Source: Flavobacterium psychrotrophum
Lineage (GTDB): Bacteria > Bacteroidota > Bacteroidia > Flavobacteriales > Flavobacteriaceae
Direction: 5' to 3'
DNA: 64,000 bases
Assembly: GCF_003403075.1 (NCBI RefSeq)
Contig: NZ_CP031557.1
Location: forward strand, 2,170,001-2,234,000
Each line of letters begins with the position of its first letter. Position 1 is the stretch's first letter. Position numbers and translations under genes: made by a program. Shown in pieces: positions 34,276 to 61,478 of this stretch. The notes below the pieces were generated by a model. It was not told where the DNA came from. It saw only the letters and a program-made list of their open reading frames with translations, and ran no database searches.

Positions 34276-34530
34276 ATGCCACAAAAGGAGGGTGAAGCTT
34301 CAAAGACCTGGCTTAAAAGTTTTGAGGTTCGAAAGCTCTTGGGCATTTCTGCCGGCACGCTACAAAATCTTAGGGTTAATGGCACATTACCCTATACAAA
34401 AATAGGTGGCCTCATATAATATAAATATGAAGATATACTTAGACTGATGGATAAAAATACTACTGATGAGAAAGTAATTCCCTATATTTTTATATTAAAT
34501 GTAGCATTTCATATTTCAAATCATTAAATC
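34276..34530 (+). pseudogene. HTH_17 excisionase-like gene, remnant 1
   Basis: From ATG at 34276 the frame reads MPQKEGEASKTWLKSFEVRK, continues LLGISAGTLQNLRVNGTLPY and hits TAA at position 34417-34419, where the intact relatives have Tyr (YYKYEDIL). After the stop YKYEDILRLMDKN continues in the same frame. It is therefore one nonsense mutation away from an HTH_17 gene like those at 44327 and 58428. The following 300 bp resemble the DNA behind remnant 2 and end at the shared GTCGGACTnCCAC. The remaining 695-bp gap (34006-34700) holds no other gene. Confidence 0.75.
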
Positions 34531-34700
34531 TGCATCAGTTACCGCTCAAATTAAATGTAAACAATTCGGTGAGCATGTATTTGAGGCTGAGAACATTATA
34601 ATAATTCAGTTACGCTTACAAATAAAGGGTGTCGGACTGCCACCCAATAAAAGCACAACAGAATGTCACCTTTGCAATCAAAACAATTCCCTGGCAATTT

Positions 34701-35681
34701 TTAAAAATAATCGGGGCAGCCCTGGCATTTCTTCTCCCAATCAAATTGGTAAAGCAGCGAAAATTCATGCACGCCACCATTACGCCCCATACTATTTGTA
34801 ATAACATCATAAGAATAGCCAATTTTAAAATGCTCGTACTGAACACCAAAATAAGGGTTTATGGATGTTAGTAAAGGTGCATTTGGATTATTCCTCGCCG
34901 GGTTTGTTGCGGCAATCACGCCAAAGAAAAAGCGTTCAAAAATAAGCCCTGCGCCCAAGTCAAAACGATTAAATTTTGATTGTTGCATATAATTTGCAGT
35001 TATTAGCAACTTTGAATCAAATGGGAAAAATGAATTGGAGACTTCGGTTTCAAATCCTCCATTAATTGAAAAGAACATATCCAGCGGCAAGTTACCAGCC
35101 ATTGTAAACGAAATATTTGGCTTGTTAAGGTGGCGTAACGAACCCCCAATCCAACAATCTTCATTATTGAATAAAAAGCCTGCGCCAACATCGAAATACC
35201 CAACTTTATTATTTAAAGCCAATGGATCTGAACTTGTAGGATCTATTGTACCGCTACCTATGTTAATCTGGTCTTCAAGCACCATGTTCTGAAATCCATA
35301 CGACTTGCTTCCGTATCCCACCTCAAGTGCAGGGTGAAAATACCAGTAGTCCGATATCTGTACGCGGTAGGTGTAGCTGGCATTAACCTGAGAAAGGCTG
35401 TAGTTGGTAAATGATTCACGCTGGCTCAGGAAGTTGACTCCAAAACCACTGTTCATATCTTCTGACCAGGTATTGAGGAAGGCATAGTCGCTATTAATTT
35501 TTAGTTTGGCATCTGGCCATTGGCTGCGGTGCACAACTCCGGCACTTGTGGTTTCCATAAAGGCGGTAAATGCCGGGTTAATAGTTTGGGGTACCATAAA
35601 ATACTGTGTGAATATTGGGTCCTGTGCCTGCACCGTTAACGCGGTTATTATGAATAATATAGTGATTGTAAGCTTTTTCAT
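34701..35681 (-). CDS. PorP/SprF family type IX secretion outer-membrane protein
   Basis: 326 residues with a signal peptide (MKKLTITILFIITALTVQA) and the family opening QDPIFTQYFMVPQTINPAFTA, then alternating beta strands ending in GVHEFSLLYQFDW. PorP/SprF proteins are outer-membrane partners needed to deliver or anchor a particular type IX secretion client. It begins 18 bp after the giant adhesin gene on the same strand, the usual arrangement for an adhesin with its dedicated SprF. It ends with the CQGCPDYF tail. Confidence 0.95.
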   Translation of the reverse strand: MKKLTITILFIITALTVQAQDPIFTQYFMVPQTINPAFTAFMETTSAGVVHRSQWPDAKLKINSDYAFLNTWSEDMNSGFGVNFLSQRESFTNYSLSQVNASYTYRVQISDYWYFHPALEVGYGSKSYGFQNMVLEDQINIGSGTIDPTSSDPLALNNKVGYFDVGAGFLFNNEDCWIGGSLRHLNKPNISFTMAGNLPLDMFFSINGGFETEVSNSFFPFDSKLLITANYMQQSKFNRFDLGAGLIFERFFFGVIAATNPARNNPNAPLLTSINPYFGVQYEHFKIGYSYDVITNSMGRNGGVHEFSLLYQFDWEKKCQGCPDYF

Positions 35682-35699
35682 GATGTAGATTGGGGATGG

Positions 35700-38600
35700 T
35701 TATTTGATAAGTACGAATGGGCCGTTAAACTCGATGACCTGGCCATAAAAAGTTTCGGCTTTGATGCGGTAATAAAAGTTACCGTTTTCCGACGGGTTTC
35801 CTTTTATATAACCGCTCCATCCTGTTATTACTTCACCTTTTTCAGAATATAACAGCGCTCCCCATGTATCAAAAACATTCAATTCAATTGATTTCAAACC
35901 TCTGTGTACAGCTTTAAACGTATCATTCATGCCATCGGCATTGGGTGTAAAAGCATTTGGTACCATTACATCATATCCTTTTGTAACCACCAAAGTTATA
36001 CGGTAGGTATCATTGCACCCGTAAGGATAGACTACATGGAGGGTCACCGTGTAAGTCCCTTCATTTAGATAAGTATGTGAAGGGCTAATTTCGCTGGAAC
36101 TCCCGCCGTCACCAAAATCCCAGCCGACTTCCAAGTAATCACCTGTGGATACGTTATCAAACTGGACAGGATCTGATATTGAGTATTCCTGATAGGTAGT
36201 AAACGCGTAGGAACCTGCCGTAAAATTAGCCTCGCCAAGTTGTTCTGTTTGTACTTCAAAAGTGGATGTAGCAGTACATCCTTTAGAATCAGTAGCCGTT
36301 ACAATCACAGTACCATTTTGGTCGGTATTCATAAGTTGGCCAAAAGCTCCCGAAACTGTTCCGCTACTCCAGGTATACTGGAAAGGTGGTACCCCACCCG
36401 CTGCTTGTGCTGTATTAGTTTGCCTAACATAATGGGTATCGCAGTTATGTACAACATTGCTGGTTATATTAAGCACTATCGGTGCCGGCCGTGTTATGGT
36501 ATAAGTGCCTGAAACAGTACAGCCAGAAGCATCGGTAATAGTAACTGAATACGTGCCGGAAGTAATGGCGGACAGGTCTTCTATAGTCTGGCCGTTAGAC
36601 CAGTTATACGTGTAGGGTAACGTTCCACCGGCTACTAACAGGTCTATAGCACCGCTTGTAGTGTCATTACAATCCAATGCATGGGTAAGGTTTGCTGCTA
36701 CCGTAAGCGCAGCAGGTTCTATAATAGTAAACGTACGGATGATCTGGCAGGGTGTGCCATCTGTAATGGTAGCGGTGTATGTGCCGGGCCCTAAATTATT
36801 ACGTTGCGTTCCGGCTGTCGAGCCATCGCTCCAAACCAATGTAACGGGCGCAATACCACCGGTAAGATTAAGGGTTATACTTCCGTCGTTTGCTCCATGG
36901 CATGAAACGTTGGCAAATACAGGCTCAACTTTAAACACCGGTGCTTCGGGTATGGGTACAGCAATCATTTTGACACAATTGCTGGCATCGGTTACTGTAA
37001 TGGTATAAATGGCTGCTGCAAGGTTATCCTGATAGGTTCCCGTTGCAAGGTTGCTCCAGTCGGCAGTGTATGGTGGGTTCCCTCCAATAATGTTAAGCGA
37101 TATCGAGGCATTGTTGGCGCCATAGCAAGTAATCGGCGTAGTTGTAGGTGTAATTATTATTTCAGGCTGCTGTGTAACGTTTACCGATAGCGGTATTGTA
37201 CACCCGTTAGCATCAGTAACAATAAGGTTATAGGCACCCGCAACAATAGTTATTACATCTTCGGAAGATGCCGTAAAGCCATTAGGGCCAGTCCACGCAA
37301 AGGTGTAGCTGCCGGAACCGTTAGCAATACCTCCTGTAACGGTAACATCAATAGCCCCGGTAGCGGCACCAAAACATAATACATTTACCTGGGTTTGACT
37401 TATCGCCAATGCTGTTGGCTGAGTAAGTGTAAAACTTTGAGCCGGGGCACTACAGCCGTTACTGTCGGCCATAGTAACAGCGTAGGTACCAATAGAAAGC
37501 CCGCTAAGATTTTGGGTCGATGCGGTAAAGCCATTCGGGCCTGTCCAGGCATAGGTGTAGACTGCTGTCCCGCCGGAAGGTGTAATGTTTATAGTACCAT
37601 TAGTCCCCCCAAAACAGCTTATTTGGTAACCATTAAATGCCGACATGGCCCCTGTAAAAGTTACCTGCTGTGGTTCGGTAATCGTAAAGTTTTGTGTCAG
37701 AGGGCAGGCGTTTGTAGTGTCAAAAATAGTAACAGTATACACGCCGGGTGCCAGTGCGGCAATGTCTTCGGTAGTAGCGGTAAATCCGTCTGGCCCCGTC
37801 CAGCTGTATGTATAGGTAGGATAACCACCAGTTACTGTTAAATTAATACTGCCATCGTTTGCACCATTACAGCTTATATTGAAACCGTTGAAATTTGAAA
37901 TAATGCTGTTGCTTATGGCAAGGCCAGTTGCTGGCTGTGTTACCTCTACCCCATTTATATACTTAATCGTGCCGTTAGCATCGGTTACACGTATATTATA
38001 CGTTCCGGCAGGCAGGTTGTCAAAAACATAATTTAATGCTGTAAGATTGTCTGCACTCTCTACAACAGTACCATCTGGCAGCAATATGGCATAGTCAAAA
38101 GGCGCGATAGATACTGTGGTAACCGCCACCTCAACCACTCCGGTAGACTGGCCATAGCAGTTAACATTTATGTGGCTGGCTGTAACCTCGGCAATAACCA
38201 GCGGCATCGGTTCGGCAATAAGTACTGTTATCGAAATAGTACTGCATAAGCCATCGGCTATTACAACAGTATAGGTACCGGGGCCAAGATTGGCTACGTT
38301 TTGGCTTGAAGCCATAAAACCATTAGGTCCCGTCCATGAATAGGTATAGTTTCCTGACCCGCCCGTAGGCGAAAGGTTAATAAACGCATCATTAGCACCA
38401 GCCGAACTGATCTGGAAGCCATTGTAATTTGATACGGTATGGGTTACTGTGAACACCGGGTTAACTGTTACTGTCAGAGTAAAGCTTGCCCCGTTACAGT
38501 TGCCCTGCGGTGAAAGAGGCGTTATGGTATATGTTGCAGTTTGAACCGAAGCTGTAGCATTGTTGAGCGTTCCTGTTATGATGCTTTGTGCAGTACCGGC

Positions 38601-41600
38601 CGTTCCACCGGTTATAGTACCCGTTGGTGCGTTCCAGTTAAATACCGTACCGTTAGGGAAAATAGTTGCCGTAGTGGCGGGATCAAAACTGAAAGCCGTA
38701 CCGCTGCATAGTGTTATTGAACCATTAGGTATAATAGCAGTCGGATTTATAGTAACAGCAACATTAAAAGGTACTCCGTCGCAACCGTTATAATGCGGTG
38801 TAATTGTATAGGTTGCTATTACAGCAGTGTTGGTTGTATTAACCAACGTTTGGTTCAGGCTGGTTTGCGGAGTACTTTGTGCTGACCCTCCGGTAAATCC
38901 GCTTCCGGTTGGTGCGGTCCAGGTGAAAGTTACCCCCGCAGGCATATTATTGCCGCCGGTATTAGAAGGTATATAATTTAGTGCAGTACCACTACAAGTG
39001 CTTATTTGGGGCGTACCGTTCACAAAAGGGACTGGCGTTACAGTTATACTGTATGCCGTAGTTGCTCCTGGACAGGCTGAAAGGTCAGATGTTGTGGCTG
39101 AAGCGGTATAGATAACTGTAATTGGGGCATTGGTAGTATTTACCAGTGTTTGCACCGGGATGGAAGTCGTACCATTTGTTGCTACCCCTGTAATACCTGC
39201 CGGCTGTGTTGCCGTCCAGCTTATTGTTGTATTTGGGGTGGCACTACTAAGGTTAACCGTTGTGGTGGCATTGCCTGAACAAATGGTTTGGCCTGTTTGA
39301 GAAAAAATTACCGAAGGTGCCGGGTTAACGGTAATGGTAAAGGTTTGCGGGACACCGTTGCAGCCATTGATTTCAGGGATAACTGTTACAGTAGCCGTTA
39401 CCGGCGTGGTACCACTATTTAAGGCTGTAAAAGTTGGTATAGACCCGGATCCGCTTGTGGCAAGCCCTATAGATGCAGTACTGTTTGTCCAGTTAAATGT
39501 TGTCCCGGTTATTGTTCCGGTAAAGTTTATTGCAGCAGTAGCAGACTGGTTACATACAGTCTGGCTGTTTACAGCTGCCACTGTTGGTGTAGGCGCGACT
39601 GTAAGGGTTACATCAAAACTGCTTCCTGTACAGCCGTTCGCTATAGGGGTTACAACATAAGTTATTGTAACCGTTGCAGTAGTTGTATTGGTAATAGTGC
39701 CCGATATAGCAGCGCTGTTAGTGCCTGCTCCCAAACCAGATACGCCCGGAGGGCCTGTTGGAGCTGCCCAACTATACACTGTGCCTGAAGGCACTGTACC
39801 GTTAACACCATCTGCTGGTGTGATGGTAAAAGAAGTACCACTACAGCTGTTTTGGGTTATATTGTTGATAACCGGTTTCGGGTTTACCGTAACGGTAACG
39901 GTAAATGTATTTCCGGTACAGGTCTGGCTACCTGAAGTCCATTTTGGCGTCACGGTATACGTAGCGGTTTGTATAGTATTGGTATTGTTTGTTAGGGTTC
40001 CACCTATACCTAGTGCATCGGTACCTGATAGCCCTCCCGCTACACCAGGACTTACCACAGGCATGCCCCACGAATATGTAGTGCCTGCCGGTACTATATT
40101 TCCACTGCCATTAGCGGGAGTTATTGTAAACGTGCCTTCACTACAAGTAGTTGCTGTTTGTGCCGTTACTGAAGGTTTAGGGTTTACTGTAATAGTAACG
40201 CTGAACGGTAGGCCGCTGCATCCGTTAGCTACCGGTGTAACAGTGTAAACCACTGTTACCGGCGCATTAGTAGTATTTACCAGTGTCTGCCCTATACCAT
40301 TCTGAGGTGTAGTTTGATTGGCTTCCCCTGTAATATTTGCATTGGCAGGTACCGTCCAGGTGTACTGCGTGCCTGTAGGGATTGTATTCCCGATAGTACC
40401 CGGAGTGATACTAACTGTATCACCACTACAAATTGTGGCTGTTTCGTTGCTTGTAATTACAGGTTTTTGGTTAAGCACAATTGCTGCGGCACTTGTGGTA
40501 AGCACGCTGCATCCGCCACCGGGAAAGGTAATGACTGCATAATAATATAATGTGCCCATAGTTGACGGTGGCAGATAGGTAGTTGTGGTAGCACCCGAAA
40601 TGGCTGTACCACCTGCGGTGCTGTTTGCTGTATTGCTGTACCACTGGTACGCAGGTGTACCGGTACCATTTTGATATGCAATAGAAAGTTGCGCCGGGCT
40701 TTGCCCTTCGCAAAGGGTTTGCGACTGCGGCTGCGATGTAACAATTGGAGCTGCAATAACGGTGACCTGTGCTGTGGCACTGGCAGCGTTACAACCCGAA
40801 ACACCTGTAGCTACCACGCAGTAATAATACGTTGTGCCAACTGTTGTGGTAGGTGGTGTATATGTTGCTGCTGTAGCACTTGAGATAGCAGTACCTGTTG
40901 TGTTATTGTTTGCAGTGCTTGCATACCATTGATATGTTAATGTACTCCCTCCCGTAGCTGTAATTGTTAGCGCAGATGCTGTACCGCCTGCGCAAAGCGT
41001 TTGTGTAGACAGCGGATTCTGCGATATAACTGGCGGGTTGGTAAGGCTTATGGCTGCAATATTGGTAAAGCTGCTGCAGGAAACGCCGTTTATAGTGCTG
41101 GTATCTACCCGGCGGTACCAGGTATTTTGGGTAAGAATTGGTGGATTATAGTTGGCAGTCGTAGCACCTGCTAGATTTGTAAAGGTACTATTATCTACTG
41201 ATGATTGCCACTGGTAGCTGATAGTACCTCCACCTGTGGCCGCTGTGCCGCTAAGTGCGGTAGGGTCGCCACCGGAACAAATTTGCTGGTCACTTCCTAT
41301 AGTTCCCGCTGTTATGGTATTTATATATATGCTTACAAAATTGCCTGTTACAGTACACGCCTCCCCGTTAAGGGTTGAGGTTACTTTCCTCCTGTACCAA
41401 GTATTTTGTGTAAGTACGGGTGGATCATAAGTAGCCAAAGTAGCCCCGGAAATATCACTATATCCTGATGTTGCATTTGCTGTAGAACTTTCCCACTGAT
41501 AGGTAATCGTACCGGCACCCGTGGCAGCCGCTGCTACCGTAAATGCGGAAGGATCTGTGCCGCTACAAACGGTCTGGTCGCTCGCTATAGCACCGGGATT

Positions 41601-44326: not shown

Positions 44327-44611
44327 ATGAACGAGCAGATCACAAAAGATGACCTTATCCAGTTTGGCAGGATGCTGGTTAACGAGATAAGTATTATGGT
44401 AAAGGGAGATTATAATCGGGAGAAAGATACTTCCGATCCTGAATGGCTTAAAAGCCGAGGGGCAAGGAAATTATTGGATATTTCCGCCGGATCGCTCCAG
44501 AACCTTCGCATTACCGGGAAGGTGCGCTACAAAAAAGTTATGGGTTCGTACTACTATAATAAGGCCGACCTTTTAGGACTATTTAATGATGTTTCGTCAA
44601 AAGATAGTTAG
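44327..44611 (+). CDS. HTH_17 excisionase-like protein, copy A
   Basis: 94 residues. The first 45 residues are variable and acidic/basic; from residue 44 comes the winged-helix motif EWLKSRGARKLLDISAGSLQ and NLRITGKVRYKKVMGSYYYN of the AlpA/excisionase-like HTH_17 family, where the helix-turn-helix binds DNA near recombination sites. The second half and the DNA behind it are almost identical to copy B at 58428, whereas the first halves differ. It sits between an adhesin module and an efflux module and is not part of an operon. Confidence 0.8.
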   Translation: MNEQITKDDLIQFGRMLVNEISIMVKGDYNREKDTSDPEWLKSRGARKLLDISAGSLQNLRITGKVRYKKVMGSYYYNKADLLGLFNDVSSKDS

Positions 44612-47017: not shown

Positions 47018-47022
47018 GCACC

Positions 47023-48081: not shown

Positions 48082-48089
48082 TTTAAGCC

Positions 48090-51185: not shown

Positions 51186-51213
51186 CCCCTTTTACCGTCC
51201 TCTATAGAAAGGG

Positions 51214-51240
51214 AAAGCCAGCCGATAACGGCTGGCTTTT
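51214..51240. terminator. Bidirectional terminator between the RND and LytTR operons
   Basis: AAAGCCAGCCG and CGGCTGGCTTT form an 11-bp stem with a four-base loop; T runs appear on both strands. The two convergent operons end here. Confidence 0.93.
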
Positions 51241-51262
51241 CTGATTTAAAGCGGCTCCCACC

Positions 51263-51988
51263 TTACGGTTCCGGGTTGAGCGCACCGCCGGTGTATTTGC
51301 TGAAAAACTCTTTCTTGTAGACCTCCCCCAACGGGATCTCCGATTCGCCGAGGTAAATGGTATGATGGTCAAAAGAATCGATATAATCCCTGTTGATCAG
51401 GTAGGATTTACTCACGCGCATAAAAATATGCTGCGCTATTCTCTGGTGGATGTTCTTCAGGTTCATCGCTGTGATCAGCTTTTGCGTTCTGGTATGGATT
51501 ACCACATAATCTTTTAAACCCTCGATGTAACGGATGTCGGCGTAGGCGATCCGGTGGAAGCGTCGCTCGGATTTAATAACAAGGTAATCCTCACTATTGC
51601 CCTCAACAGTGCTTTTTTCGGTAGCCTCGGAAAGCAGCCCTGCATAAGCTGCCGCTTTTTTTATCGTCCGCTCCAGCCTGCCTTTCTCCACCGGCTTCAA
51701 AAGGTAATCGATCGCATCCAGCTCATAGCTCCTGAGCGCGTATTGCGGATAGGCAGTAGTGAAAACAATAAGGCTTTCACCGGAAACCTGGGCAGCAAAT
51801 TCCAGGCCGTTGACCATCGGCATTTCAATATCCAGGAACATCAGGTCTACACGGTGCTCCCTCATATAACCAAGTGCTGCCGGTGCGTTGGAAAAGGTGC
51901 CCAGGATCTCAAGGTCTGAAACTTCCCGTATAAGGGCCTCCATCTCCGCGCGGGCAAGCGGCTCATCGTCAATAATGATACAATTCAT
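51263..51988 (-). CDS. LytTR-family response regulator
   Basis: 241 residues: receiver domain with IIIDDEPLARAEME and the phospho-Asp in LMFLDIEMPMVNG (Asp about 53), then a LytTR DNA-binding domain (about 135-235) with RRFHRIAYADIRYIEGLKDY, FMRVSKSYLINRDYI and GESEIPLGEVYKK. It overlaps the upstream kinase by 4 bp (ATGA) and forms a two-component system with it. It lies convergent to the efflux operon and may control it or the DUF6268 gene. Confidence 0.96.
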   Translation of the reverse strand: MNCIIIDDEPLARAEMEALIREVSDLEILGTFSNAPAALGYMREHRVDLMFLDIEMPMVNGLEFAAQVSGESLIVFTTAYPQYALRSYELDAIDYLLKPVEKGRLERTIKKAAAYAGLLSEATEKSTVEGNSEDYLVIKSERRFHRIAYADIRYIEGLKDYVVIHTRTQKLITAMNLKNIHQRIAQHIFMRVSKSYLINRDYIDSFDHHTIYLGESEIPLGEVYKKEFFSKYTGGALNPEP

Positions 51989-53064
51989 ATTGGAATATTT
52001 AAAATAACGGTATATTCTTTTTCGGTAGTGCTGATATCCAGCCTGTAGCCCGTGCCATACAACAGGCTGAGGCGCCTTTTTATATTGGGCAGGCCCAGCC
52101 CGCTGCTGCCTTCCCCGGGCGCAACATAGTCCACACTTTTTGAATTGCGGCAGGTAAATTCCAGCCGCTCGCCCTTTACCTCCACGCTCATACAGATATA
52201 GGAGGGGCTATCACTGATGTCCACACTGTGCTTTACCGCATTTTCGGCAAAAGTGGTAAAAAGGTTGGGGGGTATAAGCAGGGTGCCCAGCAATTTTGGG
52301 TCTGCCATAGATGTAATGTTTACCGAGAGATTGTCCCGGCGAAGCTTCTCCAGATCCATGAAGTTGGACAGAAAATTTATTTCAGAACGCAAAGGCGTAC
52401 CGGGTTCATTATTGTCATAAAGCTGGTAACGCAAAAATTCCGATAGCTTCATGATCACCATAGTTGCCTTTTCAGGGTTGCTGCGCACCAGCGCCTTGAT
52501 CCCGTTGAGCATATTAAAGAGGAAGTGCGGGTTGATCTGGTTGCGAAGCTCGCTAAGCTCCATCGACAAGGTCAGGTTGCTCAGTTCGGTAATCCGCTGG
52601 TTATCGGTTTTCCAGCGTTCAAAAAGCGAAAATGCTGTGGTCATCAGTATAATAGGCATCACTATGATGATCCCCTCATAAAATCCGGTATCATCAGCCG
52701 CCTGTTGCCGCACTTCTGCTATCCTTAAGGGATCAAGGTACTTGGTAAGGACGCCTGACATAAGGAACAGGCCCAGGCTGACCAGCAGCAGCAAAAAGAG
52801 AAAGTACAGCGCGTACTGTCCACGGAAAAAAAACCGGGGTACCAGTACGTACATATTAATGTAAAACATGGCGATGAAGGAGATGTGCACACACAGCAGC
52901 CTTAGTAGCTTTACAGTGCCGCTGTACTCCTTAAGCCAGTTCGAAAAAAAGATAATGCCCAGTAAAATGACCCACAGCAATATATGGCGCAGTACCTTAT
53001 AACGGGACTCAAAAAGCAGGTCAATCGCCCTTTTATCCCGGATCTGTGGGGTAGCTTGTTGCAT
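51985..53064 (-). CDS. LytS-like sensor histidine kinase (His_kinase family)
   Basis: 359 residues: four hydrophobic segments (about 26-42, 55-75, 86-105, 132-148), a short coiled-coil, the His_kinase motif QINPHFLFNMLNGIKALV (His about 180) and an ATPase tail with NLFTTFAENAVKHS and GSSGLGLPNIKRRLSLLYG. It is the partner of the LytTR regulator downstream. Members of this group sense unknown envelope or small-molecule signals. The 268-bp gap to the divergent DUF6268 gene holds no obvious site. Confidence 0.96.
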   Translation of the reverse strand: MQQATPQIRDKRAIDLLFESRYKVLRHILLWVILLGIIFFSNWLKEYSGTVKLLRLLCVHISFIAMFYINMYVLVPRFFFRGQYALYFLFLLLLVSLGLFLMSGVLTKYLDPLRIAEVRQQAADDTGFYEGIIIVMPIILMTTAFSLFERWKTDNQRITELSNLTLSMELSELRNQINPHFLFNMLNGIKALVRSNPEKATMVIMKLSEFLRYQLYDNNEPGTPLRSEINFLSNFMDLEKLRRDNLSVNITSMADPKLLGTLLIPPNLFTTFAENAVKHSVDISDSPSYICMSVEVKGERLEFTCRNSKSVDYVAPGEGSSGLGLPNIKRRLSLLYGTGYRLDISTTEKEYTVILNIPI

Positions 53065-53332
53065 CGTGGTAATGGTATTAATGATTCTTTAAAGCAAATA
53101 TAGGGGATTATCCCGCCGGGGCGTTTACTATTATACCAACCCCCCTGTTCGTTCTACCAAATTTACCATGCAGCCCGTTTAGTCTAATTTGTAAGGGGTT
53201 TGGTATAAATTTTAAATACCGCTTTCAGATAATCCCTTCTTTTGTTACGGGAAGGCCTGGGATATCTATAGGGTACCTTGGGGCATTGCCATGAGAACGA
53301 GACGCTTTATGACCATAAATTAACACGACCCT

Positions 53333-54324
53333 ATGAAGATTCTTAAAAAAACACTATTAGCCTGTTGTGCACTTGTGCCCTCTTTAGCAAGTTTCGCCCA
53401 AACCGCTACCGACAGCATCCCAAAAAGAGCCATCGCTTATGCAGCGGACAAATTCCCGATTGCCCGTGCCCTGAACATTGAGTTCACGCACACGGCACCC
53501 TACAATTTTTCACCGGAGCAGCGCGGTACCGCCATGCCCGATGGGCGCGTAAACGGACTGAACCTGGCGAAAGTAAGCGCTAACATCAACTTTATAAAAA
53601 AAAGGAGCTGGATGCTGGGAGCCACCCTAAGTTATAAATACCTTAATTCGGAAGCAGCACTCACCTCCCCACAACCGGGGAGAAAAGGCTGTTACAGGAA
53701 GATTTCCACTATCAGTTTACCACGATTAATTTTATATACTTTACACGCATCTTTAAAAAAACCACCATATTTACCTCTAGCCTGATGCTGGACGGCAGTG
53801 ATAAGCATTTCGAGAGGTTTAAAGGTATCCTTACCGGAACGATGGTGCTCAAGGCAAATGCAAAAACCAAAATGACCGTTGGCCTGCTGGGGAACATCGA
53901 CCCTACCGCACAAACCCCCATCATCCCAACCTTTGGCTACGAACATCATTTTAATAATGGGTTCATCATTGACATCAACCTGCCTAAAAGCCTTATGCTG
54001 CGTAAAAATGTATTCAGCAATGGAAGGGTTTCCCTGGGTACCGAACTGGACCAGACTTCCTTTTATTTGTATAACCTGGATACAACCGGCCGCAGGTATG
54101 AATTCAGGCAGCTCGATATCAATTCCGGGCTCCTGTACGAGCACATGGTGGCCAACTATTTTATCATCACGGCGAAAACCGGGATCAAGCTAAGCCCTAA
54201 CGGAAGGATCTTTGAAAAAAGTGGCTCATTTGCCGACCCCGTTTTTGAAATTAAAAACGACCCGTCCTTTTACTTTAACTTTGGTGTATCCTTCAATCCG
54301 TTTGCTAAATACAAAAAGAGATAA
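53333..54324 (+). pseudogene. DUF6268-like outer-membrane protein, split by a frameshift
   Basis: The first ORF (53333-53785) has a signal peptide (LLACCALVPSLASFA) and reads well to EAALTSPQP, then ends in unrelated residues. From about 53680 another frame reads EKRLLQEDFHYQFTTINFIY, FTRIFKKTTIFTSSL and continues as the second ORF (from MLDGSDKHFERFK at 53785) to KYKKR. Joining them across the run CCCCACAACCGGGG with a one-base change gives one beta-barrel protein of about 330 residues. Either a pseudogene or a sequencing error. Divergent from the LytS operon, so possibly its target. Confidence 0.75.
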
Positions 54325-54389
54325 CACCCTTTACAACGGTTGCTTCATAAGCCCTCGTAAAATAAATAAGCCCAACACAAGCACATACT

Positions 54390-54638
54390 ATGGAAGGTAC
54401 CGTTTACCATATCAATGCGGATAAGGCACGCTATTCACTCTACATAAGTGGCGACCTGTTTCTGATTTTCGAGCCCATTGGCCATTGTGAGCTGCTAAGG
54501 GGTGATATTATCAGGACGACGCCGGAGCGACTGGGTGAGGCCTCACTCTATAATATATCTACCAACTGCCAGTTTGATGCCTACCTGGAGAATCTTGTTT
54601 CCGGGGAACGTGCCGCAAAGCGCGAATGCCTGCTCTAA
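54390..54638 (+). CDS. Hypothetical protein
   Basis: 82 residues beginning MEGTVYHINADKARYSLYIS. The first half has the alternating pattern of beta strands (YSLYISGDLFLIFEPI, HCELLRGDIIRTTPE), similar in feel to an OB-fold. No family recognised. It lies 65 bp behind the frameshifted DUF6268 gene and ends before a bidirectional hairpin; it could belong to that transcript. Confidence 0.5.
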   Translation: MEGTVYHINADKARYSLYISGDLFLIFEPIGHCELLRGDIIRTTPERLGEASLYNISTNCQFDAYLENLVSGERAAKRECLL

Positions 54639-54744
54639 GTGGCACTACCAACTCATTGCTCTCTTACTACGATACGTTCCTCTAACTGTATGTTGACAAT
54701 GTTAGCGCAGCTAAAAAATAACATCAAGGTTAATTATAATTCTG

Positions 54745-54777
54745 AAAAGCTCCAGTTTTATACAAGCAGGAGCTTTT
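54745..54777. terminator. Terminator between the hypothetical gene and the P-type ATPase
   Basis: AAAAGCTCC and GGAGCTTTT form a 9-bp stem with a 15-base loop between convergent genes; A/T tracts lie on both sides. Confidence 0.65.
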
Positions 54778-54794
54778 AAATTTATATTGAGGAG

Positions 54795-56753
54795 CTATTT
54801 CAACTTCATTTTCTGTATCCTTACTGCGTTAAGTATAGCCAGCAACGCCACACCCACATCAGCAATAACAGCCTCCCATAAATTTGCAATACCACCTGCC
54901 CCAAGTACTAACACAACTACCTTAACAACCATGGCTATAGTAATGTTTTGCCATACTACCTGTTTAGTAATCTTGCCCACCCTTATGGCAGCAATAATTT
55001 TAGAGGGCTGGTCGTTCTGGATCACAATATCTGCGGTTTCAATAGTGGCATCACTGCCCAGGCCTCCCATAGCAATACCTGCATCTGCAAGGGCAACTAC
55101 CGGCGCATCATTTACACCATCGCCCACAAAGGCTATCCGGCTACCGGAATCTTTTAATGCCTGCACCTTCTCTACTTTCCCTTCAGGCAGCAAGTCTCCA
55201 TAAGCTTGGTCAATACCCAATGTTTTAGCAACCTTATCTACTACCGCCTGCTTATCGCCCGATAACATAACGGTTTGTATATTTAGCTTGTGCATTTGGT
55301 CGATTGCTTCTTTGGCATCGTCTTTAATTTCATCTGCAATGGTTATATAACCCGCATAATTGCCATCTATAGCCAATACTACCACGGTATCTATCAAACT
55401 ATTTATTTCCTCCGGATACGATATATCATATTTTTTGAGCAGTTTTGCATTACCCGCATGTATGATCTTTCCATCCACTTTACCCACCAACCCGTGGCCT
55501 GAAATTTCTTCTACACCTTCTGCTTTTAGCCCTAACTCTTTACCTACATGGTCTACCACTGCCCGCGCTATAGGGTGTGTAGAGCTTTTTTCCAGAGCGG
55601 CTGCATGGTTTACCAACTCTGTTTTATCTATTCCCACAGCTACAACTTCCTGAACTTTAAACACTCCTTTTGTAAGCGTACCGGTTTTATCCATAATAAC
55701 CACATTAATCGTGGTCATTACATCTAAAAAGTTAGAGCCTTTAAACAGGATACCGTTTCTGGAAGCCAGTCCTATACCGCCAAAATAGCCCAGCGGAATA
55801 GAAACCACTAAGGCACACGGGCAACTTATAACAAGAAATACCAGTGCCCGGTAAAACCAGTCATGAAAATTGTAAGGGTTAATAAAAAAATAGGGTACAA
55901 AACAAACCAGTAAAGCCAGGGCAAATACAATAGGGGTATAAATTTTGGCAAAACGGCTTATAAAAAGCTGTGTTTGCGATTTGCGTGCCGTAGCATCCTG
56001 CACCATCTCTAATATCTTGCTAAGCTTACTATCTGTAAAAAGCGAGGCAACTTCTACTTCTGTCACCTTATCAAGATTAATCATACCGGCATATACAGCC
56101 TCCCCTTTTCGTTTGGTATCAGGTTTGCTTTCGCCTGTAAGGGCTGCAGTGTTAAAGGTTCCGGCATCTGAAAGAAGGACGCCGTCGAGTGCTACTTTTT
56201 CACCGGACTTAACCTCTATAGTCTCGCTAACTTTAATCTCTTTAGGGTTTACGACCACCGTTTTTCCGTCCCTTTTAACGGTAACTTTATCAGGCCTTAT
56301 ATCGAGCAACGCTTTAATACTTCGTTTAGCCCTGTCTACGGCTGCATCCTGAAACCACTCACCTATCGAATAAAATACCATTACTGCTACCCCTTCGCTA
56401 TACGACCCAATGCTAAAGGCACCAATTGTTGCAACGCTCATCAGGAAAAATTCATTAAAAAAATCAAAGCGCTTTGCCTTACGCCAGGCCATGCCCAGTA
56501 CGTTATAACCCGCTAGCAAAAATGCCACAGAAAAAATGATCAGGTTAACTGGAAATGGCGGTTGGTAAGAAAATCCAAATTCGAGGGTCAGCATAACGGC
56601 CAGGATAGCAAATGCAGTAAGTAGCGGCCAGTGGCTTACCCATCCCCCGGCTTCAGAATCCTCGTTTATATCCAATTTTTCTTCATCATGCTCATTTATG
56701 ATCTTTTGATCATTTAATAGTGAAGTTGTTGGACTTAGCTTATCTTCTTTCAT
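54795..56753 (-). CDS. Heavy-metal P1B-type ATPase (Cd/Zn/Pb-exporting type)
   Basis: 652 residues. The metal-binding CPC in the sixth helix is in VISCPCALVVS; phosphorylation motif DKTGTLTKG; HP locus SSTHPIARAV; nucleotide hinge GDGVNDAPVV. The N-terminus has no CxxC/HMA domain, only a short acidic segment (EHDEEKLDINEDSEAGG). CPC with the C-terminal Lys (LNAVRIQKMKLK) fits the CadA/ZntA group, which expels Zn2+, Cd2+ or Pb2+. No metal regulator is adjacent. It occupies the efflux module of the accessory region. Confidence 0.93.
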   Translation of the reverse strand: MKEDKLSPTTSLLNDQKIINEHDEEKLDINEDSEAGGWVSHWPLLTAFAILAVMLTLEFGFSYQPPFPVNLIIFSVAFLLAGYNVLGMAWRKAKRFDFFNEFFLMSVATIGAFSIGSYSEGVAVMVFYSIGEWFQDAAVDRAKRSIKALLDIRPDKVTVKRDGKTVVVNPKEIKVSETIEVKSGEKVALDGVLLSDAGTFNTAALTGESKPDTKRKGEAVYAGMINLDKVTEVEVASLFTDSKLSKILEMVQDATARKSQTQLFISRFAKIYTPIVFALALLVCFVPYFFINPYNFHDWFYRALVFLVISCPCALVVSIPLGYFGGIGLASRNGILFKGSNFLDVMTTINVVIMDKTGTLTKGVFKVQEVVAVGIDKTELVNHAAALEKSSTHPIARAVVDHVGKELGLKAEGVEEISGHGLVGKVDGKIIHAGNAKLLKKYDISYPEEINSLIDTVVVLAIDGNYAGYITIADEIKDDAKEAIDQMHKLNIQTVMLSGDKQAVVDKVAKTLGIDQAYGDLLPEGKVEKVQALKDSGSRIAFVGDGVNDAPVVALADAGIAMGGLGSDATIETADIVIQNDQPSKIIAAIRVGKITKQVVWQNITIAMVVKVVVLVLGAGGIANLWEAVIADVGVALLAILNAVRIQKMKLK

Positions 56754-57032
56754 AGTGCTTAACTTTAAAATAGAATATTACCCTACTGGTAAACAAACGT
56801 TTATATAATGTGATTTCATAGATATCCTAAGCAGGTATCGGAAGATAAAGTAAAGCTATTATTGATTTTCATTACTATAAAAAGAAGTTAATTTAGTGAT
56901 CTGGGTCCTGCTCTGAATACAACCTATAATTCACGGTGATTAGTAACCAAATAATAAATTGTATAAAAAACAGAAGTAGCAATATTGACAGTCACTTCTG
57001 TACTTAAAAATTAACAGTATCCAAGATAGGGA

Positions 57033-57063
57033 TTGCGCAAGTAAGCAAAAATGCTTACATTTG
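57033..57063 (+). promoter_or_regulatory. Bacteroidota promoter of the toxin-antitoxin operon
   Basis: TTG at 57033-57035 and TACATTTG at 57056-57063 (a match to the TAnnTTTG -7 box) are 20 bases apart. The -7 box ends 4 bases before the antitoxin ATG at 57068, so transcription would start at or beside the start codon. The rest of the 314-bp gap from 56754 holds nothing recognisable. Confidence 0.6.
57041..57058. promoter_or_regulatory. Palindromic operator in the toxin-antitoxin promoter
   Basis: GTAAGCA and TGCTTAC are perfect arms around AAAA. The palindrome lies between the -33 and -7 boxes and overlaps the latter, as expected for autoregulation by the XRE antitoxin. Confidence 0.65.
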
Positions 57064-57067
57064 AATT

Positions 57068-57574
57068 ATGAACCCACAATTTGAGAAATATAAAGGTATC
57101 CATCCCGGTGCTATACTTGAACGTGAACTCAAAAAAAGAGACCTTGCGCAACGCCCTTTTGCCTTATCAATTGGGATTGCCCCCCAGTCATTTAACCAAA
57201 TTATTAAAACTAAGAGGCCCTTACCGATATCTGCCGCTCTAAAGATAGAAAGAGCCCTTAACTTGGAAGAGGGCGCTTTAGCCTTATTGCAAACCTATTA
57301 TGATATCAGTGTTGAAAAAATGAAAAACTCATTTCATCCGAAACCTAATTTAATACACTTACGAAAAAGCCTGTTTTGGGATACCGCTATTGACACAATA
57401 GATTGGGAAAAACAATCAAAAGCGGTAATTGAAAGAATTTTTGAACGGGGAAATTTAACTGAGAAGAAAGAAATCATACGTTTTTATGGCTCTTCCAAGA
57501 TCCGTGCTATAATCTTCGCGCCATCAGCTAAAGCAAAACTTACAAGAGGTATACAAATTAAACCAATACTATAG
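57068..57574 (+). CDS. XRE-type antitoxin of an AbiE-like toxin-antitoxin pair
   Basis: 168 residues. The N-terminus (about 8-75) is a HigA-like helix-turn-helix: GIHPGAILERELKKRDL, FALSIGIAPQSFNQIIK and ISAALKIERALNLEEGALAL. The C-terminal half (80-168) is a separate domain with ERIFERGNLTEKKEIIRFYG that probably touches the toxin. Its stop is one base before the toxin start. It should bind the palindrome in its own promoter. Confidence 0.85.
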   Translation: MNPQFEKYKGIHPGAILERELKKRDLAQRPFALSIGIAPQSFNQIIKTKRPLPISAALKIERALNLEEGALALLQTYYDISVEKMKNSFHPKPNLIHLRKSLFWDTAIDTIDWEKQSKAVIERIFERGNLTEKKEIIRFYGSSKIRAIIFAPSAKAKLTRGIQIKPIL

Positions 57575-57575
57575 G

Positions 57576-58241
57576 ATGATATATTGGAAAACTGTAAATG
57601 ATCTGCTTCGGGAAACTTTACTGCTCCTAATGCGTTCAAAAGAATTAGATGAATTTCGCCTTGTAGGTGGCACTGCACTAAGCCTGCAGTTAGGTCACAG
57701 AATGTCAGTAGATATAGACCTTTTCACTGACACTGAGTACGGTTCAATGGATTTTAAAAGCATTGAAAGTTTTCTAGAAGCAAACTTCTCCTACGTCGAT
57801 AAAGGATTTGGGGACGTTATCGGAATGGGAAAATCCTATCTCGTAGGATCAGATGTAAACGACACAATCAAGCTTGACCTTTATTACACTACAGATCCGT
57901 TTATAGAACCGCCATTGATAATAGAAGAGATTAGGATGGCAACCCTAAATGAGATCATAGCCATGAAAGTGGATGTTATCCAGCGTACCGGCCGTAAGAA
58001 AGATTTTTGGGACCTTTATGAAGTACTATCAAAATATAGTATAAAGGATATGATAGCACTCCATAAAAGCCGGTATAAATATTCACATGATGAAGTTTTG
58101 ATACGAGGCAACTTTGTGAATTTTAGTGAAGCAGACGATGATTTCGAACCTATTTGTCTCCGCGGCAATTATTGGGAATTCATTAAGGAAGATATTATCA
58201 ACGCAATCGAAAAGGAATATAAGACTATGCGTAAAAATTAA
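57576..58241 (+). CDS. AbiEii/AbiGii-type nucleotidyltransferase toxin
   Basis: 221 residues. The nucleotidyltransferase motif is RLVGGTALSLQLGHR followed by SVDIDLFTD (GG-x(9-13)-D-x-D), with the third acidic residue in IKLDLYY and a substrate Lys in IIAMKVDVIQRTGRKKDFWDL. Such toxins modify tRNA or other targets with nucleotides and, paired with an HTH antitoxin, give abortive infection or stabilise mobile DNA. It is the second gene of the pair. The 186-bp gap after it shows no terminator. Confidence 0.88.
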   Translation: MIYWKTVNDLLRETLLLLMRSKELDEFRLVGGTALSLQLGHRMSVDIDLFTDTEYGSMDFKSIESFLEANFSYVDKGFGDVIGMGKSYLVGSDVNDTIKLDLYYTTDPFIEPPLIIEEIRMATLNEIIAMKVDVIQRTGRKKDFWDLYEVLSKYSIKDMIALHKSRYKYSHDEVLIRGNFVNFSEADDDFEPICLRGNYWEFIKEDIINAIEKEYKTMRKN

Positions 58242-58427
58242 AGGAGAGTAAATTCTGTATCGTAACATCACAATGGAAGCTCCCATATTTATATCGGCAC
58301 TTTATTTTTGACGTGATATTGCAGTAGACTACAAGTTCCAAGAAATGAAATCTGATGCCCTATTGCATATATTTCCTTTTTGCATCATTACATTGACAGC
58401 AATTATTCGTAAGCTAATAGTAGTGTT

Positions 58428-58697
58428 ATGAAAGAGCCATTTACGAAAGAAGATCTTTGGCAATTCGCCTCGGAAATTATTCGTGAAGTAACAAAAATCA
58501 ATAACCCGCTGACCAATCAATCTGAAGTCATAAGTGACGAGTGGTTGAAAAGCAAAGCTGTCCGCAAGATATTGGATATTTCCGCCGGATCGCTCCGGAA
58601 CCTTCGTATTACCTGCAAATTGCGCTACAAAAAAGTTATGGGCTCGTACTACTATAATAAGGCCGACCTTTTAGGACTATTTAACGATGTTTCGTAA
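58428..58697 (+). CDS. HTH_17 excisionase-like protein, copy B
   Basis: 89 residues. Residues 1-40 (MKEPFTKEDLWQFASEIIRE) differ from copy A, but from WLKSKAVRKILDISAGSLR through NLRITCKLRYKKVMGSYYY it is nearly identical, in both protein and DNA. The motif is the same small winged HTH used by recombination directionality factors. It lies about 250 bp before a tRNA-like att core that overlaps a serine recombinase gene, as would be expected for a control factor of that recombinase. Confidence 0.8.
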   Translation: MKEPFTKEDLWQFASEIIREVTKINNPLTNQSEVISDEWLKSKAVRKILDISAGSLRNLRITCKLRYKKVMGSYYYNKADLLGLFNDVS

Positions 58698-58980
58698 AAA
58701 GATAGTTAGTTGATTTTGCTTCGCATAATTAATGTGAACTCCCCTCCTTATTTCGAATCTCCACCATCAGCAAAATTGCAATATTAAAAAGGCAATAATT
58801 GATGGCTATTTTCAATTCTGCGCGTAAATATTTTTTATAAGTTTGCATTATAACAGTTTTATGAAATAACAACTGTAAATCAACACTTTACAACTTAGGT
58901 GCAAATCAGGTGCAAGTTTTAATTGCATGCTTTAAAATATAGGTTTTACAAGGGTTTTCGAAGCAGGTTCGATTCCCGGC
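58571..58980. repeat. Direct repeat B, ending in a tRNA-3'-like att core
   Basis: Second copy of the repeat at 44473-44899, in the same orientation and 14.1 kb away. It ends in AAGGGTTTTCGAAGCAGGTT followed by CGATTCCCGGC. The region between the gene at 58428 and the recombinase (58698-58931) is entirely repeat DNA. Confidence 0.85.
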
Positions 58981-60515
58981 GACTCCACTTGACCGGAAAG
59001 GTACGCAGATTTTTGTCCTTTCCGGTTTTTTATTGAATATAAGTCGTTGTTTATCAAATAGATAAGCCGGGCTGCTTCATTGAGCTTAGGTGTTCGATAA
59101 TCTTTCCCGTCAAAAACGATTTTTTCGGGATATATCGAACCTATCAGCTCTCTTTTCTTACTTACTGGCAAAGTGCTATAGTACGTATCCAACCTTGAAA
59201 GCGTGCTAATTGCCTTATCCATAAGCTTTTCCACCTGCATCTGCGAGGGCTTATTAGCGCCTATGGTGTTCAATAATCTTTCGGCCTTCTTGATTTCATT
59301 TTCCGCTTCTTCTTTTAAAGCTTTATAATCCTCCGCATCTATCACGTCTGCCAGCAGCAGGTTCCGTGCTTTGGAAATTTTTTGGCTTAGCCTGTCAATA
59401 TCGTCAGAGATTCTTTTGCGTTGGTCATTTTCCGGCTTTGTAAATTCTGAAAAAAGCTTTCCGACAATCACCTTATACAATTCTTTGATTGCAGGATGCG
59501 GTACAAATTTCCTCAATTCACGCTCAAAAAGCTCATTCAGCTCGTCGGCGCGATAGCGATACCTGCATCCTGGCTGGCAGTGGTAATACGGATAGTGTCT
59601 AGTCTTGCCTTTTGAGGAACTGGCTGTAAGCATACCGCCGCAATGTGGGCATTGCAGAAATCCACGCAGCGGAAAATTCTCGTCAGCCTCGATTTTTGAC
59701 CTTGAACGTACCTTTCGTTTCTTGCCATCCAGTACATCCTGAACTTCATAAAAAAGGTACTCGGACAAAATCGGATCATGTGTTCCCTTTACAAACCGTT
59801 CTTCCTCATCTTTGTAGGCAGGTACATAAATTAATCCGCAGTATATCGGATTGCGCACCATCGTATAAAAAACGGAACTTCCGCATTTTAATCCCATACG
59901 GTTCACTTCCTTCCTGATCTGGTCGGCTGGCTTAACGCCTCTTGCTAACTCTTCGAAAGCCCACCGTATATAGGTCGCATGTGGCTCAACTATCCCAAAA
60001 TATTTCTTTCCGTCTTCAGTAATCTTATTTTTATACCCAATTGGTGCAATTCCTAATGCCCTTCCCTCCTTCTTGGCACGGCGCATGCCATGAAATACGT
60101 TAAGCGCCCTGCGGTCATTTTCCACCTCAGGGGTGGCAAGGTAAAGGGCCAGCATTATTTTGTTTTCCGGAATGCTGAAATCCAGTGGCTGCTCGATAGC
60201 CTGGGGCTCAACTCCGAATTTTCTAAGGATGTTGATCATTTGGTAGGCATCGCCGGCGTTCCTGCTGAACCTGTCCCACTTGGTGAACAGCACGACATCC
60301 GAGCGTCGCTTCTCTCTTTTTAGGATTTCAAGGTATTTGATCCATTCCGGACGGTTAAAGCTTTTTGCGGAATGGTCTTCCAAAATCACATTTTGGACGC
60401 TTATGTCATTATTCTCGCAATACTTGCGGAGCATATCTTCCTGATTACGCTGCGAATAGCCTTTATCCGCCTGTTCGTCAGTACTTACCCTTATATATAA
60501 ATCGGCATTTTTCAT
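58932..60515 (-). CDS. Large serine recombinase
   Basis: 527 residues. The N-terminal resolvase domain begins MKNADLYIRVSTDEQADKGY (catalytic Ser about 11) and contains FTKWDRFSRNAGDAYQM. The Recombinase domain has RRAKKEGRALGIAPIGYKNK, followed by a zinc ribbon (CPHCGGMLTASSS and CQPGCRYRY) and a coiled-coil (IDRLSQKISKARNLL). It catalyses integration and excision of a mobile element. The last 25 residues (SGQVESPGIEPASKTLVKPIF) are encoded by the att core and the repeat DNA, so the C-terminus changes with the integration site. A 58-residue gene lies 21 bp upstream. Confidence 0.94.
   Translation of the reverse strand: MKNADLYIRVSTDEQADKGYSQRNQEDMLRKYCENNDISVQNVILEDHSAKSFNRPEWIKYLEILKREKRRSDVVLFTKWDRFSRNAGDAYQMINILRKFGVEPQAIEQPLDFSIPENKIMLALYLATPEVENDRRALNVFHGMRRAKKEGRALGIAPIGYKNKITEDGKKYFGIVEPHATYIRWAFEELARGVKPADQIRKEVNRMGLKCGSSVFYTMVRNPIYCGLIYVPAYKDEEERFVKGTHDPILSEYLFYEVQDVLDGKKRKVRSRSKIEADENFPLRGFLQCPHCGGMLTASSSKGKTRHYPYYHCQPGCRYRYRADELNELFERELRKFVPHPAIKELYKVIVGKLFSEFTKPENDQRKRISDDIDRLSQKISKARNLLLADVIDAEDYKALKEEAENEIKKAERLLNTIGANKPSQMQVEKLMDKAISTLSRLDTYYSTLPVSKKRELIGSIYPEKIVFDGKDYRTPKLNEAARLIYLINNDLYSIKNRKGQKSAYLSGQVESPGIEPASKTLVKPIF
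58936..58988 (+). other. Putative att core resembling a tRNA 3' end
   Basis: TTCGATTCCCGGCGACTCCA at 58968-58987 has the T-loop sequence, the 3' strand of a T stem, a seven-base acceptor strand and the discriminator A of a tRNA. The bases before it (GCAGG) do not pair well with CCCGG, so the tRNA part begins in the T-loop and only the 3' end is present. This is the usual footprint of integration into a tRNA gene. The complete tRNA gene is not in the window. Confidence 0.55.
58992..59031 (+). terminator. Terminator-like hairpin inside the 3' end of the recombinase gene
   Basis: ACCGGAAAGG and CCTTTCCGGT form a 10-bp stem followed by six T on the plus strand, directly behind the tRNA-like core. 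It would terminate a tRNA transcript or leftover readthrough from the left. It is antisense to the recombinase coding sequence. Confidence 0.7.
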
Positions 60516-60713: not shown

Positions 60714-60733
60714 GGCTGAACTGTTAAAGTAAA

Positions 60734-60751
60734 AAAGCCCTCGCGGGCTTT
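60734..60751 (-). terminator. Terminator after the winged-helix gene (minus strand)
   Basis: AAAGCCC and GGGCTTT pair across a four-base loop (TCGC), with a T run on the minus strand. The stop codon of the winged-helix gene lies in the stem. Confidence 0.65.
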
Positions 60752-61028
60752 AAGTATTCAGGAAAAAAATCTTGCTGGGTAGATTTTTCTTTTTTGAGGC
60801 TTCGTAACGCAGGTAGCCATAAGCATCCAGCTCCTGCATGCACTTGCTGTAAGTACGTAACGCAGAAACCTTTGCAATTGCCATAATCTCATGGCTGTAC
60901 GCCCGATATGGGTTTAGAGATCCCCTGTCAGTGCTGTACTGCACCAGGGCAGCAAATATCCCGATATGGGTAGTGCTCACGCGCTGGTCATTCACGCTTC
61001 TGTGGAAAAAAGCTGACAGGGGATTCAT
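60750..61028 (-). CDS. Winged-helix protein of Bacteroidota mobile elements
   Basis: 92 residues starting MNPLSAFFHRSVNDQRVST, then THIGIFAALVQYSTDRG, YSHEIMAIAKVSALRTYSKC and MQELDAYGYLRYEASKKKN. The pattern (helix, helix, 'ISKISAKATYHKCMKEL'-like turn, beta wing) is common to small proteins found beside replication or recombination genes on Bacteroidota elements. It may be a regulator or replication-associated protein. It is separated from the DUF3945 remnant by three bases. Confidence 0.7.
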   Translation of the reverse strand: MNPLSAFFHRSVNDQRVSTTHIGIFAALVQYSTDRGSLNPYRAYSHEIMAIAKVSALRTYSKCMQELDAYGYLRYEASKKKNLPSKIFFLNT

Positions 61029-61031
61029 GAT

Positions 61032-61478
61032 TTACATTTTTTGCGCCTTCCTGCGCTGTTTTTGTCCCCCTTCCTCACCAGGGCTGTCCTCGGCAGAAGC
61101 CGACTGGGCCTTTTTGGCATCCTGCTTCTGGGAGGTTCCTTCCTTTTCAGACTGCTGCTGCTCTTTTGCCTGCCTTGTATCAATGCGTTTGTGTTCGGCA
61201 TCGTAAACAGTAAGGGTCTTAAATTGAGGGCTTGCTTCTATATACTGCTTTACCTCCTGGCCATCCTTGATGAACGTGGCGGACTGCCTGTTGCCTTTTT
61301 TCAGTGAATTAAGGAGGTCTTCCTTGTGGGAAGGATTTCCAAGCTCCTTGATTGGGTGTTTGGAGATTACCGCATCTAAATCATAACCGTAATTTTCATG
61401 GTAATGCTTCTGGCGGAAATTGCCATTGGAATCAGCATCTTTAAAATCCAGCTGTACCCTGCGCAATTGCTTATTGCT
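61032..61478 (-). pseudogene. DUF3945-type mobile-element protein, C-terminal fragment
   Basis: Residues corresponding to NKQLRRVQLDFKDADSNGN, FRQKHYHENYGYDLDAVI, HPIKELGNPSHKEDLLNSL, KKGNRQSATFIKDGQEVKQY and IEASPQFKTLTVYDAEHKR are the repeated element of DUF3945 proteins found on Bacteroidota conjugative elements, followed by a low-complexity Gln/Glu/Lys tail. The protein should be several hundred residues long; everything upstream of about 61478 is missing and replaced by a fragment of an ankyrin gene in the opposite direction. It ends the mobile DNA on the right. Confidence 0.8.

Follow-up and report, generated by a model that had tools for sequence, protein, structure and literature searches.

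The window analysed here, a stretch of 64,000 nucleotides from Flavobacterium psychrotrophum (NZ_CP031557.1, positions 2,170,001-2,234,000; genome 4.84 Mb, one contig; coordinates are window positions unless otherwise stated), probably contains integrative elements arrayed in tandem at copies of the ssrA 3' end, among which a 14.1-kb unit resembling a cis-mobilizable element (CIME) lies between a left element and a serine-recombinase element. In the catalysis and the order of events that we infer, such elements would use the 3' end of the tmRNA gene ssrA as their recombination site, by means of one clade of Flavobacterium tyrosine recombinases, and an ssrA-type right end (attR) would comprise an HTH_17-like gene, a small gene that is absent here, an arm with a direct repeat, and an ssrA core. 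The right end at 44.3-44.9 kb would close a left element with the PorP/adhesin cargo; the interval 44,869-58,982 would be the CIME-like element, with its own right end and without an integrase; and at core 3 the unit would abut a serine-recombinase element of the ssrA type, of which this is the left end and which appears truncated at about 61.46 kb (table 1).

Table 1. Positions of the proposed elements, their att cores and arms, and the HTH_17-like copies in the window.
Feature	Position	Strand	Remark
Clade-2 HTH remnant, internal TAA	34276..34470	+	no att core detected alongside
PorP/SprF gene and giant PKD/SprB/CHU_C protein, right-hand part of putative left element	34701..44054	-	
HTH2, intact clade-1 HTH_17-like gene	44327..44611	+	open frame, 94 aa
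Arm 2	44612..44883	+	direct repeat at 44819-44839 (GGTGTAAATTC/GGTGCAACTT)
Core 2, degenerate ssrA-end-like; left end of 14.1-kb unit	44884..44905	+	F. rivuli similarity from 44869, stepping up at 44884
Clade-2 HTH remnant, N-terminal third absent	44900..45058	+	directly after core 2; present in F. rivuli too
Unit cargo: OEP/HlyD/AcrB efflux, LytTR-HisK, DUF6268 gene in two frames, P-type ATPase, AbiE-like pair	45698..58241	.	
HTH4, intact clade-1 HTH_17-like gene, right end of unit	58428..58697	+	open frame, 89 aa
Arm 3	58698..58964	+	direct repeat at 58898-58917 (GGTGCAAATC/GGTGCAAGTT)
Large serine recombinase, left end of putative ssrA-type element	58932..60515	-	C-terminus antisense through core 3
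Core 3, copy of ssrA 3' end	58965..58989	+	F. rivuli match stops inside, at 58982
Small conserved gene of the HTH module of such elements	60750..61028	-	no Pfam family; 58% to G224
C-terminal piece of an HTH-module gene, cut at about 61457	61035..61457	-	63% G224, 47% F. rivuli
Ankyrin gene, C-terminal piece, other side of broken right junction	61461..61691	+	

Four HTH_17-like copies were present in the window, at 34276, 44327, 44900, and 58428, every one on the plus strand; this number, placement, and common orientation, reported in an earlier sequence-only reading of the same DNA, was borne out by the open frames and the remnant matches. Across the genome, HTH_17-like sequences occurred at 10 places at E<=0.01, of which 4 lie within these 24 kb. 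The copies had been regarded as a single small family, and all of them are indeed HTH_17-like, but they fall into two clades, with the intact copies at 44327 and 58428 in clade 1 and the remnants at 34276 and 44900 in clade 2. The remnant at 34276 showed 76% identity over 59 aa to the HTH protein of the element L029 of the same genome, compared with 49-52% to the intact copies, and the remnant at 44900 showed 74% to the L029 protein (38 aa) and 46-56% to the intact copies. In L029, an intact clade-2 HTH gene lies in an element with tRNA-Pro/Ser, a tyrosine integrase, a Toprim primase, and a relaxase, and the clade-1 relatives at L027 and L028 adjoin a relaxase. The window copies have no integrase, small partner gene, relaxase, or primase nearby, except for the serine recombinase beside the copy at 58428. 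The regions of the two intact copies align over 427 nt at 85% identity (E 1e-137), and the non-coding arm and the core make up about 250-270 nt of this alignment; by this comparison the likeness of the two copies far exceeds chance.

Downstream of each intact HTH gene, a conserved arm of about 270 nt leads into an ssrA (tmRNA) 3'-end copy that is near-exact at 58966 (core 3) and degenerate at 44884 (core 2); both arms and both cores are read directly from the DNA. Core 3 matches the ssrA 3' end over 24 nt with one difference (58966-58989), and the 427-nt stretch shared by the intact copies terminates at 58974 and 44893. When the 22-nt 3' end of ssrA was searched with <=3 mismatches, three places were found in the genome, namely the tmRNA gene itself (1,995,996; called by ARAGORN), window position 58966, and chromosome position 5724; the same pattern read backwards, as a control, matched 0 places in the genome. 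From ssrA across the wider zone, strict core patterns matched only ssrA, core 2, and core 3, and a search with core patterns detected no ssrA-like core at 34276. A looser core pattern gave two extra minus-strand matches (one at 45407, the other 11 kb outside the window, to its left) with 2 mismatches each, which we regarded as chance. Islands at ssrA are recognised as being bounded by ssrA or by a direct repeat of its 3' end, and such a boundary is present at core 3 and, in part, at core 2. Alignment of arms 2 and 3 with the F. rivuli left junction and with the loci L198 and L222 revealed a common right-end plan, consisting of a repeat region, about 50 nt, GGGTTTT, and then the GTTCGATT core. 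The motif GGTGCAA, which was chosen after the fact, occurs twice each in arm 2 (where one of the two copies lies within the direct repeat), arm 3, and the arm of the ssrA-adjacent integrase of this genome; it was found in 2/61 other arms and in 0/3 other clade integrases of this genome, and 27/5000 random 320-nt windows contained at least two copies. The exact 29-nt arm pattern gave no match across the genome contigs, the F. rivuli sequence being off by one base. An arm search of 121 genomes of the genus gave matches in 46, which outside the genome's own were short only and nearly all to the ssrA end, and in a search of 398 genomes of the genus the arm was found in one, the genome itself, and in none of the others.

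The extent of the unit was delimited by its copy in F. rivuli WB 3.3-2, the only carrier found besides this genome. Contig NZ_KB899973.1 of that strain matches window positions 44869-54690 (97.28%) and 54689-58982 (97.23%), with 782 additional bases between the two blocks, and the nine unit proteins compared are 97.0-99.1% identical. At the right end, 17/17 bases are identical before 58982 and 4/10 beyond it; at the left end (anchor AGGTTCGATT), 21/22 bases are identical inside the unit, and 2/7, 9/18, 9/25, and 7/50 outside. The similarity begins at 44869 and steps up at 44884, and the 9-nt AAGGGTTTT just outside the left end is common to both species and forms part of the motif of all right ends. 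The neighbours of the unit differ between the two species at both ends: in F. rivuli, conjugation-like frames (identified by eye), an HTH gene, a small gene, an AbiE-like pair, and a different right arm lie to the left, and other DNA with a partial tRNA-Tyr end lies to the right. In the 5.9 kb further right, matching pieces are 69-84% identical to this genome, a range that describes the best pieces only and may include paralogues. An identity of 97% against 69-84% for neighbouring genes, ends inside att cores, and other neighbours together indicate that the unit was horizontally transferred and that its ends lie in the att cores. The comparison of the 45.1-58.4 kb interval in another context, which had been suggested as a check on the sequence-only reading, thus came out in favour of a separate unit.

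The gene content agreed with that reading as well, since Pfam confirmed both cargoes and the serine recombinase at the right: a PorP_SprF gene stands beside the giant adhesin, a PKD/SprB/CHU_C protein of 2784 aa, and the unit encodes OEP, HlyD, and AcrB-type efflux proteins, a LytTR/His-kinase pair, an E1-E2 ATPase, and AbiEii with an HTH_3/DUF6922 partner. Within 44869-58982, no integration or transfer genes were found by Pfam (11 proteins; very small frames left out), and tblastn with integrases, relaxases, and primase gave no match. In two respects the unit thus corresponds to a CIME, in that it lacks integration or transfer genes by these searches and has kept att sites at both ends (44884 and 58965), of which core 2 is degenerate; a CIME would in addition be mobilised in cis by a neighbour. 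Taken together, the sequence comparisons indicate that 44.9-59.0 kb is a discrete integrase-less unit in a tandem array, abutted by an ssrA-type serine recombinase. A plasmid search returned one record, with the metal ATPase at 73%. The DUF6268 gene occupies two frames here (53333-54324) and a single frame of 330 aa in F. rivuli, and the 782 bases (F. rivuli contig 181598-182379), which include a small gene, are absent here at about 54690; the split gene and the missing bases would represent decay of the unit. The unit (57068-58241) and the unrelated element to the left of the F. rivuli unit (L236 11185-12279) each have an AbiE-like pair immediately inside their right end, the two pairs being 73% alike in DNA. 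Such a pair is perhaps an island stabiliser, and the one in the unit may stabilise it.

The order of genes at the right ends was also observed in two other species. In Flavobacterium sp. A45 (L198) and F. aquicola (L222), an HTH gene, a small gene, and an arm are followed by a partial tmRNA end, 631 nt and 664 nt, respectively, past the HTH and small genes, and in L222 the DNA past the tmRNA end resembles the ssrA-downstream DNA of relatives. This order with an ssrA core was found in only 2 of the 80 named relative loci, which are the best 80 of 157 confirmed, and its sequence identifies it as the right end (attR) of ssrA-type elements; the small gene is absent from both right ends of the window. 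Among the same best 80 of 157, a tyrosine recombinase of one clade is present in 62, and in 57 of these it is encoded on the opposite strand less than 2 kb downstream; a small gene lies just downstream of the HTH gene in 79, and only L196, which is the HTH4 copy of F. rivuli, lacks a partner. In 25 relative loci counted by eye (L031-L055), all 25 have an integrase, small partner gene, relaxase, or primase in their flanks of about 1.5 kb. The clade integrases, where seen, begin near the 3' end of a tRNA (Tyr, Ser, Ala, Val, or Leu) or tmRNA gene. This genome has a clade integrase 304 nt after the intact ssrA, 233 kb from the array, and the DNA directly after its ssrA resembles that of relatives without an integrase there. 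We infer that this ssrA-adjacent integrase is the partner of the window right ends; the ssrA end is a candidate for its own core. In G020, two integrases of the same clade (L177 15249 and L179 3891) lie beside partial tRNA-Ser ends and a third beside an intact tRNA-Ser, which is likely another stack.

The most likely role of the small HTH protein is that of excisionase (directionality factor) for the tyrosine recombinase. The genetic partnership with a tyrosine integrase in 57 of the best 80 of 157 loci is as expected for an excisionase, and the window copies do not show it. No family match reached its cut-off, as Pfam HTH_17 scored 19.2 and 18.8 bits in the two intact proteins against a curated threshold of 27, and NCBIfam and PHROGs returned no match for HTH2 or HTH4; the HTH relatives in L029 and L027 gave weak matches to excisionase PHROGs. 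A winged-helix fold would be expected of such an excisionase; the predicted fold shows helices, a hairpin, and a helix in order at a mean pLDDT of 65, with no Foldseek match at E<=0.001, and a sequence search of the PDB gave 0 matches. Small proteins of Bacteroides tyrosine-integrase elements, NBU1 Orf2x and CTnDOT Xis2c/Xis2d, are required for excision, and by description they are comparable to the HTH protein.

At core 3, the serine recombinase C-terminus VESPGIEPAS is read antisense across the core, for which the antisense frame of the true ssrA gives VESPGIEPGS. Homologues of this recombinase (25-38%) abut ssrA ends in five relatives (G077, G001, G107, G114, and G229). ARAGORN called an intact tmRNA beside the recombinase in G077 and G114 and none in G001 and G107, though the 3' end is identical there, and in G229 ssrA matches over the full 394-nt gene. 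The far ends of these elements were not found within the stretches examined in G229, G107, and G114. In the window, the right junction at about 61457/61461 has the sequence of a broken end, with no att site. One contig of G001 begins in the same ssrA end and continues without the recombinase (L160 1-180 versus L061), so that ssrA with and without the serine recombinase in one assembly perhaps reflects an active or polymorphic element. Another large serine recombinase (L014 14162-15846) likewise has a C-terminus that overlaps a tRNA-Met gene antisense.

The ssrA gene lies to the left, at a distance of 219 kb from core 2 and 233 kb from core 3. The frames from ssrA to 2,170,000 look accessory by eye, with conjugation-like genes at 2.10-2.12 Mb, and ARAGORN detected no tRNA gene from ssrA to 2,265,000. 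The aroB gene adjoins ssrA in G048 and here lies 148 kb to its left. In G224, the 40 kb after ssrA include an integrase (69%), a metal ATPase (76% to that of the unit), and an HTH module, along with many homologues of genes from both sides of the array; this layout fits a large ssrA hot spot, a single 219-kb left element being unproven. Synteny comparisons with G048, G305, G206, and G388 and with the ssrA-downstream genes of relatives revealed no empty site for the whole array, and no chromosome border to the right of the array was identified in the relatives compared; homologues of the window flanks are clustered in relatives, but their order differs. On either side of the array, at 9900-32100 and at about 61700-75700 (to 2,245,700), stands a set of stress genes (among them DNA ligase D, SDR, zinc dehydrogenase, and FMN reductase), the two sets being paralogous in part, and the relatives G048, G305, and G224 have one such cluster. 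At chromosome positions 5722-5757 (L014), a GHMP kinase-like frame (by eye) contains, in antisense, 36 nt identical to the ssrA 3' end, possibly an integration scar in a core gene. An Rfam search of 33.0-62.5 kb gave a single sub-threshold CRISPR-DR4 match, which we regarded as chance, and a tandem repeat search gave 0.

These observations bear on how the unit came to lie between its present neighbours. It might never have moved by itself and have come inside a larger conjugative element, with the neighbours inserted or lost at both cores. The F. rivuli unit lies directly to the right of another right end (HTH gene, small gene, and AbiE-like pair), so the tandem could have travelled together, and tandem transfer of a CIME with an ICE is described in PMC5704250; however, because the neighbours are unlike at both ends in the two species, at least two independent exchanges exactly at the cores would be needed, and the same att sites would still be relied upon. 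We consider this course of events unlikely. Far less credible is that the HTH-arm copies have nothing to do with integration and stem from an old segmental duplication or are ordinary regulators, with an ssrA-like core arising by chance: HTH_17-like genes are frequent in this genome (10 places), but in F. aquicola and sp. A45 an ssrA core closes the same gene order, similarity to F. rivuli breaks off inside core 3, and the backward-pattern control found 0 places. Several observations count against the tandem array of ssrA-type elements that we favour: the distance of its cores from ssrA, the degenerate core 2, the ssrA right-end order in only 2 of the 80 loci, the small gene absent from both window right ends, the resemblance of the DNA after ssrA to that of relatives without the integrase, the motif chosen after the fact, the HTH_17 scores below the cut-off, the fold prediction with no Foldseek match, the lack of an empty site or a right-hand chromosome border in the relatives compared, and the single further carrier of the unit. 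For this array a more specific version can be formulated, in which the unit is non-autonomous, with two att ends and its own excisionase, and travels between Flavobacterium species by borrowing a resident ssrA-type tyrosine recombinase; this version is possible but doubtful. If it were true, an own excisionase, and not an integrase, would be the minimal kit of a travelling cassette.

The sequence-only reading had also proposed that orphan HTH genes mark cargo boundaries, each left behind by an insertion in a region growing stepwise at one site. The boundaries hold at 44.3-44.9 and 58.4-59.0 kb, which end at ssrA-derived cores, but do not extend to the remnants, which belong to the other HTH clade, the one at 34276 having no core and the one at 44900 lying inside the unit, as its left end. 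Instead of being left behind by insertion, the HTH gene appears to be a regular end gene of such elements. Stepwise growth gains from the F. rivuli copy of the unit with its ends in cores; because no empty site for the whole array appeared in the relatives compared, the case for such growth is built on the unit. A guess from one sequence has thus become a delimited element that has mapped ends, another natural copy, and a named candidate integrase, and with such a unit and candidate, excision and trans-mobilisation become testable. For annotation in this clade, we suggest that an orphan HTH_17-like gene, an arm of about 270 nt, and a copy of a tRNA/tmRNA 3' end be taken as the right end of an element, the integrase of which may be distant or lost.

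A literature search, mostly outside subscription journals, found no paper on this array. As far as the available parts of the sources describe them, the closest systems are CIME accretion (PMC5704250) and the ssrA islands of Dehalococcoides (PMC3146451). In ICE/IME-CIME accretion, att-bearing units without integration or transfer genes stand in tandem at one target (PMC5704250); the unit described here likewise lacks such genes, keeps its att sites, and stands in tandem at one target, but differs from the accretion described there in its occurrence in Flavobacterium, its ssrA-type core, its own HTH_17-like gene, and a second natural copy with ends in cores. In Dehalococcoides, several islands lie in tandem downstream of ssrA; 20-bp direct repeats of the ssrA end delimit them, and next to attL the reverse strand encodes a serine recombinase of about 540 residues (PMC3146451). 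The tandem elements at ssrA-end repeats and a reverse-strand serine recombinase, here beside core 3, are shared features; in contrast to those islands as described, tyrosine- and serine-recombinase ends meet here at one core, which is 233 kb from ssrA, whereas the Dehalococcoides repeats all lie within 100 kb (PMC3146451). The 10K island of Riemerella anatipestifer, a related bacterium, has a tRNA-adjacent tyrosine integrase, 53-bp direct repeats, and experimental integration and excision (PMC6764341); by description it is comparable in its tyrosine integrase, and it differs in being a single island at tRNA-Arg (PMC6764341). CTnDOT-like islands of Mucilaginibacter, also Bacteroidota, carry metal resistance beside tyrosine recombinases and conjugation genes (PMC6316836); their metal-resistance cargo is similar to that of the unit, but they have self-transfer modules, and no ssrA core is reported in the available part of that source (PMC6316836). 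Genome growth by stacked elements is already known, and the array described here would be a new example of it, with a clean boundary test in a second species.
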